DNA of 34,612 nt, taken from Chloroflexota bacterium. GTDB lineage: Bacteria > Chloroflexota > Anaerolineae > UBA1429. A program made the position numbers and the translations under genes. The first letter of the stretch is position 1. Every line of letters begins with the position of its first letter. Positions 21,221 through 33,746 of this stretch are shown in pieces. The notes below the pieces were generated by a model. That model saw only the letters and a list, made by a program, of their open reading frames with translations. It did no database searches and was not told the origin of the DNA. Location of the stretch: contig JAJFUJ010000045.1 of assembly GCA_021372475.1 (NCBI GenBank), forward strand, positions 1 through 34,612. Reading direction: 5' to 3'.

Positions 21221-22531
21221 CTAGCGCTGCGCCGTTGCCTGTCTTGATATATAGGAATCAAGCCAGTTGGCAATCGGAGCACCGCCCTGACCCAGGATAC
21301 GCTCAATAGCCCGGCTGTAGTAGCTGAAAAAGGGTATGAGCTGTCCGGCAGATGCATCATGCCCAGCGAGTAATCCCTTGAGCCAGATGATATCATTTTC
21401 CAGTAAGGAAAGATCACCCAGGTCAAGCGCCGCAATAAGCCAGTCGCCAAAATAGGCATTCGCCTCGCGGAGGTACTCGATAGAAACGCCATGCGTCTTC
21501 AGGTCTCGGGATAAAGCAAGTTCAACCAGTGGCCGTTTCTCCTTGAGCAGGCCGGCGCATTGCACGAACTCACTGCGCATGGCTGGTGCCAGCGGCGGGG
21601 GATAGGTTAAAAGGCAAGCGGCTGCCTGGGCAGCGCGTTCAAGCTTTTCGCCCAGGAAATGCGCTGGGATGCGTTCGCGCAACCGTGGGATTCGGTTAAA
21701 GACCAAACCGCCGTAAGCCAGCGGGGTATTTTGCTCACGGAGTAACAGAGCTGCCGAACGTAAAGTGGCTGCGGAAGGCAAGTGCTGCGCCATCATAATT
21801 ACCAGGTCAGGTGAAATCGTTGCAGTCGTCTCCTGGAGCTGCTCCAGCGGGATATCGGCACCGAGACTGATAACCGTATAGCCGCTGCGACGAAGATACA
21901 GGCTGAGAAACAATGCTGGTAGAAAATGGTGTTCACCGGCCGGGCAGCCGATAAGTATGCTTTTCGATTGCGTCGGCGGCGGTGTTACAGTTTTCAATAT
22001 CTCCAATCGGCGGATAACCAGCGAGGATGCAAAATGCTCCTGCTGCACGGTGCATTTACCCTCATACCAGCGCTGGCCCAGAATATTCAGCCCTTGCTGC
22101 AGGATAGCGCTGCAAACCGTTTCAACCGGATACAGTGCGAAAGCCAGGTTGAGGGTATCTTCAGCCTGGCGTTCGGCAAAAGCCAGGCAGGCAATAAGCC
22201 AGTTATCACGCAAGGTATGGATACTTGCTTCAGTACCCGAACTAGCGGAGGGGTCTGGCGGGGGAACGTATTCTGCCAAAGGATCACGTCCGGAGCCAAG
22301 TATTTCCTGCCACATTCCCACGGCGCTGCTGATGCTCAGCCCTTCCGATAGGCGCATCTTTAGCCACTGGATGGTTTGGAGGTCGCGCGCTGAATAGAGG
22401 CGGTGCCCGCCGGCCGTACGCCGGGGCTGCGGCAGGCCGTAGCGCCGTTCCCAGGCGCGCAGCGTATCAGCCTTGATGCCGGTCTCTTTGAGCACGGCGC
22501 TCAGATTATAAAGAGGAGAGTCGTTGGCCAT
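21221..22531 (-). CDS. CarH/LitR-type MerR regulator with cobalamin-binding light-sensor domain
   Basis: A 436-residue regulator. The MerR helix-turn-helix occupies residues 8-75 (TLRAWERRYGLPQPRRTAGG and GHRLYS). A B12-cap domain follows with Trp155, nine residues, then Glu165-His166: the W-x9-EH motif of AdoB12 photoreceptor CarH proteins. The cobalamin-binding domain starts SILIGCPAGEHHFLP, giving His201/His202 as lower axial ligand, and continues GADIPLEQL. In CarH the AdoB12-bound tetramer represses in the dark and light disrupts it. An extra helical C-terminal region of about 125 residues is unlike the roughly 285-residue CarH. The start at ATG 22531 fits the MerR N-terminus; the upstream open frame overlaps its promoter. 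Confidence 0.88.
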   Translation of the reverse strand: MANDSPLYNLSAVLKETGIKADTLRAWERRYGLPQPRRTAGGHRLYSARDLQTIQWLKMRLSEGLSISSAVGMWQEILGSGRDPLAEYVPPPDPSASSGTEASIHTLRDNWLIACLAFAERQAEDTLNLAFALYPVETVCSAILQQGLNILGQRWYEGKCTVQQEHFASSLVIRRLEILKTVTPPPTQSKSILIGCPAGEHHFLPALFLSLYLRRSGYTVISLGADIPLEQLQETTATISPDLVIMMAQHLPSAATLRSAALLLREQNTPLAYGGLVFNRIPRLRERIPAHFLGEKLERAAQAAACLLTYPPPLAPAMRSEFVQCAGLLKEKRPLVELALSRDLKTHGVSIEYLREANAYFGDWLIAALDLGDLSLLENDIIWLKGLLAGHDASAGQLIPFFSYYSRAIERILGQGGAPIANWLDSYISRQATAQR

Positions 22532-22573
22532 GATGATGTTAACCCCAAGCTGGTCTTGTTTTAATCTAGGCCG

Positions 22574-22602
22574 AATATACGCAAGCGTCAAATAATTGTC
22601 AA
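22574..22602 (-). promoter_or_regulatory. Promoter of the CarH-like regulator
   Basis: On the minus strand: perfect TTGACA (complement of 22597-22602), a 17-base spacer and TATATT (complement of 22574-22579, 5 of 6). A copy of the ATATAC hexamer (22575-22580) overlaps the -10 box and may be an operator half-site shared with the divergent promoter. Confidence 0.7.
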
Positions 22603-22621
22603 GAATTAATTGTGCAATATA

Positions 22622-22650
22622 TTGACATATGGTATATCCTCTGGTATCAT
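22622..22650 (+). promoter_or_regulatory. Near-consensus promoter of the TspO-like row of genes
   Basis: Perfect TTGACA (22622-22627), a 17-base spacer and TATCAT (22645-22650, 5 of 6). The predicted transcript starts near 22657, leaving a leader of about 205 bases. Such a strong core promoter suits control by a repressor. Confidence 0.72.
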
Positions 22651-22656
22651 ATATAC
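22632..22656. promoter_or_regulatory. Candidate operator: GTATAT-N13-ATATAC inverted repeat
   Basis: GTATAT (22632-22637) and its inverse ATATAC (22651-22656) flank the -10 box of the TspO-like promoter. A third ATATAC sits on the regulator's own -10 (22575-22580). The placement suits repression by the CarH-like protein; binding itself is inferred. Confidence 0.4.
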
Positions 22657-22862
22657 AGGAAGCCACAACCGGTTCAAGCCTAGTGTTGCAGCGGTGTCTC
22701 TATGTGAAGCTCATCCTGTGCGACTATACCTGGTGAAACAGGCAGGAATGCGCCGCCGACAAACGGATGGAAAATCGCGACGCTGTTGCGAAGAGCAGTG
22801 CCGCCGGGTGCTGATTGCCCGTATATTCCTGTTGCGAACTATCAAGGTACAAGGAGAAAGGG
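22657..22862 (+). other. Long untranslated leader upstream of the TspO-like gene
   Basis: About 205 bases between the predicted transcription start and the ATG at 22863. I looked for the B12-box and conserved core of a cobalamin riboswitch and did not find them, nor any other riboswitch I know. Short frames here lack ribosome binding sites. Confidence 0.45.
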
Positions 22863-28088: not shown

Positions 28089-29459
28089 CTACTCGCTTCG
28101 CGGCAGTTCAAAGTTGAACGTACTGCCCTTCCCTTTGACCGATTCGACCCAGATGCGCCCGCTATACCGCGTGATAATCTCTTTAACGATCGACAATCCC
28201 AGGCCGGTGCCTTGTGCAGAGGTTTGTTTGGCGGTCTCGGTTCGGTAAAATGGCTCAAATATCATCGCTTGTTCTTCGGGCGTCATCCCGATGCCGGTAT
28301 CGCGCACACTGCCGCGCACCTGGCCGTCGTCGGCTGCCACGGTGATATCGATTTTACCCCCAGCCGGCGTGTATTTGATGGCGTTGGATACCAGGTTCAT
28401 CCAGACCTGCTTGATATGCTCGCTTTCCGCGCGCACTAGCAGCCCTTTGGGTGCCTGAATAGTTATCCCGAGCTGTTTGGCTTGAGCGCGCACTTGCATC
28501 AGGTCCAGCACATCCATCAGGACGCTGGAAGCGTCCACCGTGGTGACAGTGGCAGGCGCCTTGGGTTCCTGGGCATGCACTAAATCAAGGAGGTCGGCGA
28601 TAAGGTCCAACTGGTCGCGTGCGCGTAGTTCTGCCCGCGTAATGATTTCGTTGAACCGTTCGGCAGGCACATAGCCATCCAAAATCAGGCGCAAATAGCT
28701 CTGGATTGCGGCAACCGGCGCACGCAGCTCGTGAGTGACCAGGCGGATGAACATAGCCCGTGAATGGTCCAGTTCCTTCAGACGCTCGTTTAGCTTTGCC
28801 AACTCGCCGGCGCGCAACTCACAGGCGAGGTCGGCATCATAGAGCTGGCGTTCGCCTTCGCGCAGGCGCGAGATAATGCCGGAAATAAAGAACGCCACAA
28901 TGAGGTTCAGGCTAATCAATACCAAAGAGATTGATACGACGTGCATCGGTTCAGTGTAGCGGCCCGGCAGGCGATATCCGGCCAAGTTGTAGTGGGGAAT
29001 CACCCCGCCGGCTTCGCATAGGAGCAAAGCCACCCACACTATGCTGGCTGCCGTCGCATAGATAAGGCTGGCGCGCTGCGTTGTCAGCATACTGGCGGTT
29101 AATACCAGCAACACATAATAGGCAGCAAAAGGATTCTCCAACCCGCCGGTAAAGTGCATTATCATGGTAAAGGCGACGAGATCGGCAGCCAACTGCATAT
29201 AAATGATCAAAGCATGGGTCTCGCGCGGCGCGTTGCGGCTGGTTAAGCGGCGGGTAAGAATCCAAAAGAGACCATTATAGCAAAAGATGACGGCCAAAGT
29301 AGCCCATAGTGCGTTCAAAGGCAGGCTGACGTGCAGCACATAGTGCACGATGAGCACCAATCCCAAGGCAAAGCCAGTAGCCGGCCAGCGAACCGTTACC
29401 AGCCAGCGGCTGCGCTCCCCCAATTCACGATCGAGCGGGATGCGTAATATCTCTGTCAC
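28089..29459 (-). CDS. Membrane sensor histidine kinase with RegB-like GGxxNPF motif
   Basis: A 456-residue sensor kinase. Six predicted helices fill residues 25-198. Between helices 3 and 4 is FTGGLENPF (103-111), the GGxxNPF heptapeptide that in RegB/PrrB binds quinone. A short linker leads to the HisKA domain with THELRAP (His243). The HATPase domain follows with NLVSNAIKY (355-363), DTGIGM (387-392) and GTGLGLSIVKEI (417-428). GGAGGAG precedes the ATG. It is the last gene of the seven-gene operon that also encodes NuoEF and three receivers. A redox or quinone signal is a reasonable inference; the RegB redox Cys beside the H-box is not seen. Confidence 0.9.
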   Translation of the reverse strand: MTEILRIPLDRELGERSRWLVTVRWPATGFALGLVLIVHYVLHVSLPLNALWATLAVIFCYNGLFWILTRRLTSRNAPRETHALIIYMQLAADLVAFTMIMHFTGGLENPFAAYYVLLVLTASMLTTQRASLIYATAASIVWVALLLCEAGGVIPHYNLAGYRLPGRYTEPMHVVSISLVLISLNLIVAFFISGIISRLREGERQLYDADLACELRAGELAKLNERLKELDHSRAMFIRLVTHELRAPVAAIQSYLRLILDGYVPAERFNEIITRAELRARDQLDLIADLLDLVHAQEPKAPATVTTVDASSVLMDVLDLMQVRAQAKQLGITIQAPKGLLVRAESEHIKQVWMNLVSNAIKYTPAGGKIDITVAADDGQVRGSVRDTGIGMTPEEQAMIFEPFYRTETAKQTSAQGTGLGLSIVKEIITRYSGRIWVESVKGKGSTFNFELPRSE

Positions 29460-29472
29460 CGCTCCTCCTTAT

Positions 29473-29955
29473 TTAGGGCAGACCAAAGACATCCCGCCAG
29501 GCAGCGATCGCTGCCGGGGCTTCCTGGCCGCCGATAACGCAGGTGATAGTGGAGATGGAGGTGCTGACTGCCAGGATGTTGATACCGGCGTTCGCCAGGG
29601 CGCCGAACGCGTTGCCGGCGATGCCAGGGCGTTCGCGAAAGTCAGGCCCGTATATCGAAATTAGCGCAACCTCGTTGTTAACAGTTACCTTACGCGCATT
29701 AAGCCCCTGAGCCACACGCTGCATCGCTACCAGGACGCGAGCACAGTCGCTTTCATCCACGCAGAACTGCACATGGGACTCGTTATTCAAGTCGATGCTC
29801 TGCACAATGAACTGGGCGTTCAGGTGTTCGCGCCCCAACGCGTTGAATATAGCGCTCACGAGCCCGGGCCGGTCGGGGGTCGACATGACCCCGACAAGGC
29901 ACAAATGAGGTATATGGATTATGCCGCCCGCTGTGGCTCGTTTTTCTCCTGCCAT
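29473..29955 (-). CDS. Twin-ACT-domain protein resembling the aspartokinase regulatory region
   Basis: A 160-residue soluble protein made of two ACT domains. The first (about 18-85) has STPDRPGLVSAIFNALGREH and IVQSIDL, like the effector-binding ACT of aspartate kinase. The second (about 95-158) has GPDFRERPGIAGNAFGAL and STSISTITCVI, like the aspartokinase TS-eIsIsCvi segment. The kinase domain is missing. Such ACT pairs bind amino acids such as lysine or threonine. A GGAGG site precedes the ATG. It lies 13 bases from the histidine kinase and 39 bases from a receiver gene, so it probably feeds an amino-acid signal into this circuit. No partner is shown. Confidence 0.85.
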   Translation of the reverse strand: MAGEKRATAGGIIHIPHLCLVGVMSTPDRPGLVSAIFNALGREHLNAQFIVQSIDLNNESHVQFCVDESDCARVLVAMQRVAQGLNARKVTVNNEVALISIYGPDFRERPGIAGNAFGALANAGINILAVSTSISTITCVIGGQEAPAAIAAWRDVFGLP

Positions 29956-29994: not shown

Positions 29995-30375
29995 TTATCC
30001 TTTGGCCAACAACCGCGATACACGTTTAAGCAGATCGTCCGGGGCGATTGGCTTGGAGACGAACTCATCAATATGGATATACTCATCGGTCGGGAACAGC
30101 GCGGCGTAATCGCTGTTGGCTATCGATGTGACCATCAGGATGGGAATCCTGGCCTGCTCGGGAACGCTTGCCATCTGCTGGCTAACATACAGCCCGTCCA
30201 GTACTGTTTTCATGATTACGTCAAGTATCACCAGATCGGGTCGGCCATCATGCACTTTACGCAAGCCCACGTCGCCGTCGGCCGCGCTTTCCACCCGGTG
30301 CCCCGCTCTTTCCAGGACCATGCGCGTCGCCTCAACAAAATCGGGGTCGTCATCAACCACTAGAATTGTAGCCAT
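29995..30375 (-). CDS. Single-domain response regulator (receiver only), copy 1
   Basis: A 126-residue CheY-like receiver. The acidic pocket is VVDDDPDF (6-13), the phosphoacceptor is Asp52 in VILDVIM, the switch Thr is in MVTS, and Lys108 is in SKPIAP. There is no output domain. It shares PTDEYIHIDEFVSKP with the receiver fused to the AsnC-type regulator at the head of the operon, so the two are recent relatives. GAGGAGG precedes the ATG. It lies between nuoF and the ACT gene and is a likely target of the histidine kinase. Confidence 0.92.
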   Translation of the reverse strand: MATILVVDDDPDFVEATRMVLERAGHRVESAADGDVGLRKVHDGRPDLVILDVIMKTVLDGLYVSQQMASVPEQARIPILMVTSIANSDYAALFPTDEYIHIDEFVSKPIAPDDLLKRVSRLLAKG

Positions 30376-30389
30376 GATGTCCTCCTCGC

Positions 30390-31682
30390 TTACGCAATTA
30401 GAACCGAGTGCTGCGGGTTCTCTTTCACCGCGCAGTAACCATCCCTGATATGCTGCTCGAACTCGTCATTGAACAACCTTAATCCACTGCGTATTGGCGC
30501 GACCAGGGCTTCGCCAAAGGGGCACAAGGTGCGCCCTGCGATTCCGTCACATAACGACTGCAGATTGTCCAAGTCGCCCGGCTTGCCATGGCCGGCCTCG
30601 ACGTGTTCGAGAATGTCCAGCGCGCGCTGCGAACCGACACGGCAGGGAGTGCACTTGCCGCATGACTCGTGGCCGAAGAAGCGCGTGGCACGCCTGACAA
30701 CGTCCACCATGCAGGTGCGTTCGTTCATCACGATGACTGCGCCGGTGCCCAGCGCGGAACCCGCGGCCGGCAGCGATTCAAAATCCATGCGCACATCGAG
30801 CTGTTCGCCGGTCAGAAAGGGGGTCGAGGCGCCGCCGGGGATGACGGCTTTGATGCGGTGGCTGCCCGGCACGCCGCCGGCATAATCCTCGATAAGCTCC
30901 CGCAAGGTAATGCCGAGGGGCGCTTCATACACGCCGCGCTGGTACACGTGCCCGCTGACACAGAATATCTTGGGACCGGTGCTCTTCTCTGTGCCGATGG
31001 TGCTGTACCATTCCGCGCCATGGTTGACAATGTGAGGGATATTCGCGAGCGTTTCCACATTGTGCACCAGAGTTGGCTGCTGCCAGAAACCGCGCTCCGT
31101 CGGGAAAGGCGGCTTGATGCGCGGCTCGCCGCGGAACCCGCTGAGCGATTCGATCATCGCCGTTTCCTCACCGCAAATATAGGCGCCGGCGCCACGGTGC
31201 ACCGTCATGTCAACGCTAAAGCTACTGCCGAGGATGTTGCGTCCGAGATAATGGTGCTCGTAAGCATCGCTTATCGCTTTGTTCCAGCGTTTGAATCCCA
31301 GAAAGAACTCGCCTCGGATATACACATAGATGCGCGATGCGCCGACCGCGTAAGCAGTGATAATTGCACCCTCGATGATCTGGTGGGGGTCGCATTCCAC
31401 CAGCACGCGGTCTTTGAAGGTGCCCGGCTCACCCTCGTCGGTGTTGACGCATAATACCTTGGGCATCTCTTCCTTGGGCATAAAGCTCCACTTGAGCCCG
31501 GTCGGGAACCCCGCGCCGCCTCGGCCGCGCAGCTTGGAACGTTTGACCAGGTCGATCAATTCCTCGGGCTTATAGTCCCTGAGCGCCTTTTCGAGCGCCT
31601 GATAACCGCCGTTAGCTTGATATACACCGAGCGTCTCGCTGCGGGGCAACTTGACGCGCTTTAGTAGAATCGGGTCAAACAT
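30390..31682 (-). CDS. nuoF: NuoF-like NADH-binding flavoprotein subunit
   Basis: A 430-residue subunit of NADH:acceptor oxidoreductases. LRGRGGAGFPTGLKW (51-65) is the NADH/FMN loop, and GAGAYICGEETAM (164-176) is the second FMN/NADH motif. Cys341, Cys344 and Cys347 in ESCGKCTPC with Cys387 in TLCPFGEA bind the N3 [4Fe-4S] cluster. The length matches NuoF of complex I and not HydB, which has extra N- and C-terminal iron-sulfur domains. A GGGGAGG site precedes the ATG. nuoE lies two bases upstream, but no nuoG, hydrogenase or formate dehydrogenase subunit is in the window, so the electron acceptor is unknown. Confidence 0.94.
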   Translation of the reverse strand: MFDPILLKRVKLPRSETLGVYQANGGYQALEKALRDYKPEELIDLVKRSKLRGRGGAGFPTGLKWSFMPKEEMPKVLCVNTDEGEPGTFKDRVLVECDPHQIIEGAIITAYAVGASRIYVYIRGEFFLGFKRWNKAISDAYEHHYLGRNILGSSFSVDMTVHRGAGAYICGEETAMIESLSGFRGEPRIKPPFPTERGFWQQPTLVHNVETLANIPHIVNHGAEWYSTIGTEKSTGPKIFCVSGHVYQRGVYEAPLGITLRELIEDYAGGVPGSHRIKAVIPGGASTPFLTGEQLDVRMDFESLPAAGSALGTGAVIVMNERTCMVDVVRRATRFFGHESCGKCTPCRVGSQRALDILEHVEAGHGKPGDLDNLQSLCDGIAGRTLCPFGEALVAPIRSGLRLFNDEFEQHIRDGYCAVKENPQHSVLIA

Positions 31683-31684
31683 AT

Positions 31685-32128
31685 TTAACCTCCCCGCAAT
31701 TCATCCAGCAACATATCGACGCGATCGGCCGTCAGGTTTTCGTAGAGCGTATCGTTGACGCGCATGGCCGGCGAAGAGCTGCACGAGGCCAGGCACTGCA
31801 CCATCTGCAAAGTAAAGAGACCGTCGGTTGTTGTCTCGCCCGGGCATATGTGTAACTTATTTTGAATATAAGCTGCCAGGTTCTCGGCGCCATCGGCCAG
31901 GTAACACGACAACCCCTCACAAACCTGCAGCACATAGCGGCCGGCCGGCTGTGTACGGAACATTGAGTAAAATGTGGCGGTCTCGTACACCTGAGCCGGG
32001 CTGATGCCCAACCGCGCACTCACCCGCTCCAGGGCATCGGGGGTGAGCGAGCCATACTGCTCCTGGGCGATATACAAGGCCGTCAGCAGCATCGCGCGTT
32101 TCGCAGGATCGGGCAGTACCTTGGTCAT
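31685..32128 (-). CDS. nuoE: NuoE-like [2Fe-2S] thioredoxin-fold subunit
   Basis: A 147-residue subunit. The N-terminal helical part leads to the thioredoxin-like domain with Cys70-x4-Cys75 (VCEGLSC) and Cys112-x3-Cys116 (QCLASC), the four ligands of the N1a [2Fe-2S] cluster. ETATFYSMF (49-57) is the usual NuoE helix. AAGGAGG precedes the ATG. It is two bases ahead of nuoF, so the pair forms a minimal diaphorase. It sits between two receiver genes inside a regulatory operon, which is not the usual complex I context. Confidence 0.93.
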   Translation of the reverse strand: MTKVLPDPAKRAMLLTALYIAQEQYGSLTPDALERVSARLGISPAQVYETATFYSMFRTQPAGRYVLQVCEGLSCYLADGAENLAAYIQNKLHICPGETTTDGLFTLQMVQCLASCSSSPAMRVNDTLYENLTADRVDMLLDELRGG

Positions 32129-32142
32129 ACCATATACCTCCT

Positions 32143-32535
32143 TTAGTCAAACCGCTTGACCATCTCGCTGACGCGCTTGAGCAATTCCGACGGCGCAATC
32201 GGCTTACTCATAAAAGCTACTGAACCGCCGTCCTCAGACCTGCCCAGCAGGTCGTCGTCCTCTGTGGATACGATCGCCGAAACCATCAGAATCGGGATAT
32301 GCGTCAGGCGTTCATCGGTCTTGATCTCCAGGTCGATAGAAAGGCCGTTCATGGAGCGGGCCAGCATCACATCGGCAATGACGAGGTCGGGCGGCGTGCG
32401 GTGCAGCGCTCGCAGCCCCTCTACCACGGTCTGCGCTGTCTCGACACGGTATCCACCAGCCTCGAGCACGATGCGCACATAACTGTTAAAATCCTGATCA
32501 TCATCGATCACTAGAATGCGTTTCGGGTACATCAT
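32143..32535 (-). CDS. Single-domain response regulator (receiver only), copy 2
   Basis: A 130-residue CheY-like receiver with the pocket VIDDDQDF (9-16), phosphoacceptor Asp55 in VIADVML and Lys111 in MSKPIAP. The loop before the Lys is longer and acidic (STEDDDLLGRSEDGG), unlike the other two receivers in the operon. No output domain. The first two codons are both ATG (32535 and 32532); the second is better spaced from AGGGA. It is 14 bases upstream of nuoE. Confidence 0.9.
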   Translation of the reverse strand: MMYPKRILVIDDDQDFNSYVRIVLEAGGYRVETAQTVVEGLRALHRTPPDLVIADVMLARSMNGLSIDLEIKTDERLTHIPILMVSAIVSTEDDDLLGRSEDGGSVAFMSKPIAPSELLKRVSEMVKRFD

Positions 32536-32547
32536 CGTCCCTGGCCT

Positions 32548-33378
32548 TTACCGGCGCCTGAGCAGCCGCTTGACCTCGGAGGTAAGCTGCACGGGCGAAA
32601 CCGGCTTGGAAAGAAAACTATCGACCCTGATGTCCTCATCAGTAGGCAGCATGCCGGCATACTCGGTCGAGGTAATCGAACTGACTACCAAAACCGGCAG
32701 GTTGCGCAGCGTTGGCTCATCCCTCACGCGCCGCAGTGCATCCCAGCCGTCCAGAACGCCTTCCATGATGATATCCAGTATCACGAGGTCAGGCGGCTCG
32801 GTCAGCATCATCTGAAAGGCAACCTGACCGGTAGCAGCGCTTTGAGTAGTGAATCCCTCGGCCTCCAATACCATACGGCATATTTCGACAAAGTCGGGGT
32901 CATCATCGACGATAAGAATCATAGGCGCCTGGGGTTTAGGTAATGCCCAGGTAGAGCGCTCTTTGACGATTTGCGGCACGTGGCAGGTTTTGCTGGCGAT
33001 AACCCCGGGCAGCAGCGTTAATTTTTCATTGATGAACTGAAGCAGATGCTGGTTGGAGGAAAAGGCCGCCTCAACCATGATGTCATAACCGCCGGTCAAT
33101 AGGTAAACACTCAGCACTTCGGGCATGTCGCGGAGCTGGCGTACCGCCTCCTGAACGCTGGCGAGGGTCATCGTCAACAGAATGATGACCCGGTCGTTAT
33201 ATCCAGCGAGGCTCGGTTCGGCCTGGCCGATGACCTTGAAGCCGCCTTCCGCCAATAGATGCTCGATGTGCTTGCGGATTGTGCCTTCTGAGACGCCCAG
33301 CACTTTGCCAATCTCGACGTTGCTGCGTCGGCCGTCCTGTTGTAATAACTCGATGATGCGATAATCAATTTGGTCCAT
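32548..33378 (-). CDS. Lrp/AsnC-type regulator fused to a response-regulator receiver domain
   Basis: A 276-residue fusion. Residues 1-50 are an AsnC winged helix (MDQIDYRIIELLQQDGRRSN and VLGVSEGTIRKHIEHL). Residues 62-140 are a RAM/AsnC ligand domain with VYLLTGGYDIMVEA and the KTCHVPQIVKE ending. A linker of about 13 residues leads to a complete receiver domain (153-276) with VDDDPDF, phosphoacceptor Asp202 in VILDIIM and Lys258 in LSKP. The join is in one open frame with no stop. GGGGA lies just before ATG 33378; the upstream open frame is AT-rich promoter. It is the first gene of the operon and probably binds the three repeats in its own promoter. Confidence 0.88.
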   Translation of the reverse strand: MDQIDYRIIELLQQDGRRSNVEIGKVLGVSEGTIRKHIEHLLAEGGFKVIGQAEPSLAGYNDRVIILLTMTLASVQEAVRQLRDMPEVLSVYLLTGGYDIMVEAAFSSNQHLLQFINEKLTLLPGVIASKTCHVPQIVKERSTWALPKPQAPMILIVDDDPDFVEICRMVLEAEGFTTQSAATGQVAFQMMLTEPPDLVILDIIMEGVLDGWDALRRVRDEPTLRNLPVLVVSSITSTEYAGMLPTDEDIRVDSFLSKPVSPVQLTSEVKRLLRRR

Positions 33379-33415: not shown

Positions 33416-33444
33416 TATATAGCACATAATACGAAATTCGTCAA
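33416..33444 (-). promoter_or_regulatory. Promoter of the AsnC-receiver/NuoEF/kinase operon
   Basis: On the minus strand: TTGACG (complement of 33439-33444), a 17-base spacer and TATATA (complement of 33416-33421). The predicted transcript starts about 30 bases before the ATG at 33378. Operator copy 1 lies in the spacer and on the -35 box. Confidence 0.65.
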
Positions 33445-33503
33445 TAAATATTTAATATATAACGTTATTCGTATATTATATATAGATATAAGACGAATAT
33501 CGT
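33431..33503. promoter_or_regulatory. Three ACGA-N3-TCGT operators at exact 31-bp spacing
   Basis: Copy 1 is ACGAAATTCGT (33431-33441), copy 2 is ACGTTATTCGT (33462-33472, one mismatch), and copy 3 is ACGAATATCGT (33493-33503). Starts differ by 31 and 31 bases, close to three helical turns, so all face one side of the DNA. The spacers are almost pure A/T, hence bendable. Phased sites in bent DNA at the gene's own promoter are typical of Lrp/AsnC autoregulators. Copy 1 covers the -35 end, which suggests repression. Confidence 0.75.
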
Positions 33504-33746
33504 ATAATCTTTTGTGAGTGATGTGAGAAAGCAAGGAGGCCTAAAATCTAGATAATCCTAGTTTGAGATTTGCTGCCGTTGGGCTATGGCAATCGGGTAT
33601 GAAAACAATTAGGAGCAAAGAGTATATTCTTTGCTCCTAAAACAACGTAACGCAAACGGCACGATGGCGGTTCAGGCATCACCAAGGGCTTCTAGGATGA
33701 CCCCCGTGGCAGGAGAGCTGCTACAAAGGGCGGTGCGCGTTTTCGC
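33504..33746. other. Non-coding stretch between the signalling operon and cysS
   Basis: Together with the promoter and operators this makes a gene-free stretch over 33379-33746. It holds two hairpins, listed separately. I see no gene or RNA in the rest. Confidence 0.6.
33611..33638. terminator. Hairpin downstream of cysS
   Basis: A 10-bp perfect stem AGGAGCAAAG (33611-33620) with CTTTGCTCCT (33629-33638) and an 8-base loop. In the cysS direction it is followed by AATTGTTTTC, a modest T-run. It lies about 110 bases past the cysS stop. Confidence 0.65.

Follow-up and report, generated by a model that had tools for sequence, protein, structure and literature searches.

A three-turn-phased operator array predicted to control its own receiver-fused Lrp/AsnC regulator in Anaerolineae

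Three palindromic sites of the form ACGA-N3-TCGT are spaced by 31 bp at the promoter of a gene encoding an Lrp/AsnC protein fused to a receiver domain, within the 34,612 nucleotides of Chloroflexota DNA analysed here (the window). Very probably, the regulator controls itself through this array. In the fuller reading, which we favour with good though not complete confidence, the three sites are predicted to be the phased operator of the fusion protein, occupied by dimers that share one helix face and serving autoregulation, mainly repression. The elements of the promoter region are as follows.

33416..33421, minus strand: -10-like hexamer TATATA with TGC before it; aligns with TATAAT of relatives
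33439..33444, minus strand: -35-like hexamer TTGACG; counterpart present in 26 of 31 orthologs, with a 17-bp spacer in all 26
33431..33441, no strand assigned: operator copy 1, ACGAAATTCGT; exact ACGA-N3-TCGT, overlaps the -35 box
33462..33472, no strand assigned: operator copy 2, ACGTTATTCGT; 7/8 match; relative to the gene, upstream of copy 1 by 31 bp
33493..33503, no strand assigned: operator copy 3, ACGAATATCGT; exact; relative to the gene, upstream of copy 1 by 62 bp
33609..33640, minus strand: intrinsic-terminator-like hairpin between cysS and the operon, separating the array from cysS upstream
32548..33378, minus strand: presumed binder of 276 aa, an Lrp/AsnC helix-turn-helix (HTH), RAM ligand domain and receiver fusion (Pfam PF13404, PF01037, PF00072; orthologs)

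Each operator copy is an 11-bp palindrome, and the array lies upstream of the minus-strand gene at 32548-33378. The first-pass annotation had reported three occurrences of the motif with start-to-start distances of 31 and 31 bp; the three sites and both distances are confirmed (starts at 33431, 33462 and 33493), but the motif is exact only in copies 1 and 3, copy 2 matching 7 of the 8 fixed bases. The spacers, described there as consisting of A/T only, are A/T at 37 of 40 positions and contain one C and two G. Copy 1 does overlap the -35-like TTGACG (33439-33444, minus strand), as had been stated. The promoter thus delimited comprises TTGACG, a 17-bp spacer and TATATA. It was not called in the window by a generic sigma-70 consensus scanner, because TATATA lacks the T required at position 6; TATATA is a putative -10 hexamer, assigned by alignment with relatives having TATAAT at the same place.

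The earlier claim that such phasing is unlikely by chance was borne out: three equally spaced copies appeared in 0 of 50,000 dinucleotide shuffles, and three or more matches at 7/8 or better within the 140-bp promoter region in 2 of 50,000. Counted over the whole window and allowing one mismatch, the motif shows no excess (10 occurrences vs 7.5 expected, a number reached in 25 of 100 shuffles), so that the motif alone is not significant. A single-site search of the genome itself returned six ACGAWWWTCGT places, two in the array and four inside ORFs, which leaves the array as the one promoter-type place there. As this search gave no target beyond the array, a larger regulon in the own genome was rejected.

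Among 396 genomes of the class, 32 contain an ortholog of the fusion (E values up to 1e-55). One of these (G056) was dropped since its 5' end is cut by the contig, so that 31 of the 32 were read; for G004 the upstream region was taken from its separate 5' contig piece. A search of the phylum (400 genomes, E values up to 1e-45) placed the fusion in one genome of another class. Among the 80 loci kept from a contig scan, the named records that match over the full length come from Chloroflexota MAGs, most of them bearing the label Anaerolineae.

The comparison of intergenic regions among relatives, proposed in the first-pass annotation, supports the array. Near the gene, 26 of the 31 upstream regions contain a TTGAC-N17-TATAAT-like promoter with the operator over the -35 box; in all 26 the operator starts 3 bp into the -35 hexamer and the promoter spacer is exactly 17 bp. 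These 26 were used for a promoter-anchored profile, the five without a matching promoter being left out there and kept in the unanchored counts (G405 is in no profile). The mean match to the eight fixed bases was 4.58/8 at offset -31 and 4.23/8 at +31, the two highest values besides offset 0, against a background mean of 1.98 (sd 0.53) over offsets -100 to +60 and a next-best offset of 3.31; the score at offset 0 (mean 6.38/8) is in part a product of the anchoring. The picture did not change when each genus was represented by one sequence. Without anchoring, a strong pair (at least 13/16) at 31 bp was present in 18 of the 31 regions and 16 of 23 genera, the second commonest strong-pair spacing being 62 (6 of 31 regions). 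When all 256 palindromic half-sites were tested in this way, ACGA scored in 18 regions and the runner-up in 4. The out-of-class ortholog carries TTGACGATTTTCGT over its -35 box and a 7/8 site 31 bp downstream.

The arrangement of the sites varies around the promoter copy. Most relatives have sites at -31, 0 and +31 relative to it; in the window they are at -62, -31 and 0, the +31 site having been lost. Many of the -31 and +31 partners in relatives are half sites only; at +31 it is often a left half site alone, ACGA being found at +30 or +31 in 16 of 26 relatives. With +1 set by convention 36 bp downstream of the first -35 base, the site centres fall at about -28, -59 and -90 in the window, and in most relatives also at about +4. 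Individual upstream regions show further variation. In that of G405 (L237), TTGACGAAAATCGTCAA contains one more perfect site, which precedes the gene by about 187 bp and the promoter copy by 117 bp and does not fit the 31-bp register. In G013 and G002 (L003 and L007) the upstream full site is TTGACGAAATTCGT on the opposite strand, and the copy at the -35 box of the gene itself is degenerate and displaced by 1 bp.

The annotated AsnC-receiver operator stands as a three-turn-phased array that is tied to the gene and conserved in relatives retaining the operon, but not as a feature of every ortholog. No array was found near the gene in 5 of 31 orthologs (genera g14 and g42), nor elsewhere in the loci of these genera, despite an unchanged recognition helix in the aligned g14 and g42 fusions. 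Control may have been lost or moved in these genera, and they count against a universal rule.

The N-terminal half of the fusion protein matched the AsnC-type HTH (PF13404, 50.5 bits) and the RAM/AsnC_trans_reg domain (PF01037, 54.9 bits), both above cut-off, and the C-terminal half the receiver domain (PF00072, 72.4 bits). Across 21 aligned fusions the HTH residues G16, R17, N20, E31, R35 and K36 are invariant, as are the receiver's acidic pair D158-D160, D202 and K258, with S233 at least 90% conserved. Since the key residues of the receiver are intact, control by phosphorylation appears plausible from the alignment. An AlphaFold monomer model (mean pLDDT 88, pTM 0.67) consists of an Lrp half and a receiver half; it confirms the domains, oligomers being outside its reach. 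The fold of the N-terminal half matches Lrp-family structures, among them 2e1c (the PH1519-DNA complex), 7fby and 1i1g, and each Lrp or receiver match among the 50 solved structures listed spans a single half of the protein. No description of a receiver-fused Lrp was found in the literature searched. All that the available portion of PMC5847659 mentions is an AsnC-ligand-domain-like output in archaea.

Behind the fusion gene, on the same strand, are a formate/nitrite-type transporter and the following genes.

32143..32535, minus strand: stand-alone receiver protein of the same gene run (PF00072)
31685..32128, minus strand: NuoE/HoxE-like subunit (PF01257, TIGR01958)
30390..31682, minus strand: NuoF-like diaphorase subunit (PF01512; TIGR01959 above cut-off)
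29995..30375, minus strand: second stand-alone receiver protein (PF00072)
29473..29955, minus strand: double ACT-domain protein (PF22468/PF01842)
28089..29459, minus strand, predicted start: membrane histidine kinase, candidate phosphodonor (HATPase_c, HisKA, 6TM_PilS)

The histidine kinase of this run may pair with the receiver of the fusion. Two stand-alone receivers and the fused one share the run with a single histidine kinase, and phosphate branching among the receivers is possible. The double ACT protein (29473-29955, minus strand) resembles the regulatory domain of aspartate kinase, stands alone in the run and could be an amino-acid sensor. Elsewhere in the window, the gene at 21221-22666 (minus strand) combines a MerR HTH with B12-binding domains; by this domain content we take its product to be a CarH-like light or cobalamin regulator.

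According to the mechanism that we propose, each 11-bp palindrome would be contacted by the HTH pair of one dimer. With a 31-bp period, neighbouring dimers would lie on the same helix face three turns apart, which suggests cooperative binding as a higher oligomer. The copy over the -35 box would block RNA polymerase, so that the operon is probably under mainly negative autoregulation. Repression would be exerted from the copy at -28, and in relatives from +4 as well, on the receivers, the NuoE/NuoF diaphorase, the ACT protein and the histidine kinase; activation could result when the -59 site is partially occupied. The state of the fusion, in oligomerization or in binding, may be set by the receiver, by a ligand of the RAM domain, or by both, and the fusion may wrap the DNA as an octamer. 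A more specific version is put forward tentatively, as possible but less likely than not: phosphorylation of the receiver by the kinase would shift a dimer-to-octamer state that the 31-bp ruler reads, and a single two-component signal would thereby make or undo a nucleoprotein wrap on the diaphorase operon and, in parallel, on the [NiFe] hydrogenase operon of some relatives.

A second target is indicated in some relatives. A search for paired sites in 100 relatives led to the promoter before a NuoG-like gene in G005 and G003. NuoG was then searched in 27 of the 32 fusion genomes and in five without a detected fusion. Of the 30 positive genomes, 28 had their NuoG-like loci scanned; in the other two the 5' end is incomplete. 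An array pair precedes the NuoG-[NiFe] hydrogenase operon in 4 of the 28 loci (G001, G003, G005 and G011; spacings of 31, 31, 31 and 30), that is, in 4 of 13 within the family of the window; it was not found in the other 24 of 28, the own genome included. In the three of these four loci that were read, the second site also lies on a TTGAA-type -35. Three of the four genomes carry the fusion. In the fourth, G003, the orthologous NuoF (69% identical) is cut by the contig end, and the fusion gene may therefore simply lie off the contig. In G005 the array promoter stands before the NuoG-like gene, which is followed by the small and large [NiFe] hydrogenase subunits. The hydrogenase cluster of this genome (L205:6561-14191; G005:C440) also includes a NuoF-GltD-like 1018-aa fusion and a maturation protease ahead of the array promoter. 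The places found with TTGACGAWWWTCGT in 100 relatives are at the fusion gene, plus single places elsewhere; three of the latter, G005:C474, G011:C87 and G007:C10, were rejected as targets, being in ORFs.

The simplest reading of the array is autoregulation by the fusion, as the Lrp family binds phased arrays and commonly regulates its own genes, with Ss-LrpB as a precedent. The array lies within the promoter of the very gene that encodes the regulator, as in autoregulated operators of the Ss-LrpB type, and its palindromes are phased by three turns both here and in 18 of 31 ortholog regions. In the accessible text of PMC2995911, Lrp-family proteins are described as binding arrays of imperfect palindromes at two- or three-turn spacing and as commonly autoregulating, and the part of PMC8707732 that was available reports 30-31 bp repeats in feast/famine target promoters, there citing Koike 2004. 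These traits weigh against the view that another Lrp paralog or an unrelated dimeric repressor binds the array and controls the operon, while the fusion serves other targets or acts on protein partners: autoregulation from an adjacent operator is usual for the family and a 30-31 bp period is an Lrp/AsnC trait (same sources, same extent). Moreover, 6 of the 9 places with pairs of 0-1 mismatch in 100 genomes precede the fusion gene, the arrays tracking it. We infer the fusion to be the binder, further Lrp-like proteins do occur in relatives (as weaker hits to residues 1-140), and the g14 and g42 fusions occur without an array; on balance, we consider a different binder improbable. That A/T-rich promoter DNA gave rise to these repeats by chance is scarcely credible. 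The lack of a window-wide excess and the imperfect copy 2 would agree with it, but not the shuffles, none of which gave three equally spaced copies, nor the conservation of motif and spacing in 16 of 23 genera whose proteins are about 39-55% identical to that of the window.

The direction of control is less settled, and the idea that the array mainly activates deserves somewhat more weight than a different binder, while still being rather unlikely. The -59 site would then be class-I-like, the phosphorylated fusion recruiting polymerase, and the overlap with the -35 box would be of low affinity only. A site at -31 or -32 (centre at about -59) does match 7-8 of 8 bases in 15 of 26 promoters, and for archaeal Lrp proteins both activation from upstream sites and concentration-dependent switching are described in the accessible parts of PMC2995911 and PMC4046817. 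Yet the best conserved copy lies over the -35 box and spacer (its mean of 6.38/8 being partly built into the anchoring), a position that blocks polymerase, as does that of another copy at about +4, and the promoters already have near-consensus hexamers. We therefore retain mainly negative autoregulation by the fusion as the probable mode.

A site over the -35 box combined with a 31-bp ruler would amount to a strict, testable cis-code for a receiver-fused Lrp, by which further targets could be found simply by pattern. In uncultured Chloroflexota it would link Lrp regulation of the metabolite type with two-component signalling and with hydrogen/NADH electron transfer.

Among known systems, Ss-LrpB of Sulfolobus solfataricus likewise has three palindromic sites at its own gene; there, one dimer binds per site, cooperatively and with wrapping (available text of PMC4046817 and PMC2995911). 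Ss-LrpB further differs in its archaeal promoter, a different motif (TTGCAAAATTTGCAA) and the lack of a receiver domain, the window array being bacterial and placed over a -35 box. Ptr2 of Methanocaldococcus jannaschii, also of the Lrp family, has two regularly spaced target sites (PMC2995911, in the portion available). Unlike the predicted system, it is an archaeal activator acting via TBP and has no receiver. The core of its site is ACGA-N3-TCGT-like, which we take as a lead only, a literature search having brought nothing relevant. In solved structures, FL11/PH1519 and other feast/famine regulators belong to the closest matches by sequence and fold, but they are two-domain proteins with amino-acid effectors and no phospho-receiver. 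Response regulators of the OmpR/NarL type combine a receiver, with acceptor Asp and conserved Lys, with a DNA-binding domain. The fusion also joins these two functions; in contrast to them, its output is a complete Lrp (HTH and RAM) that is N-terminal of the receiver. Phased Lrp operators are already known, and what is new is one predicted to serve a receiver-fused Lrp.
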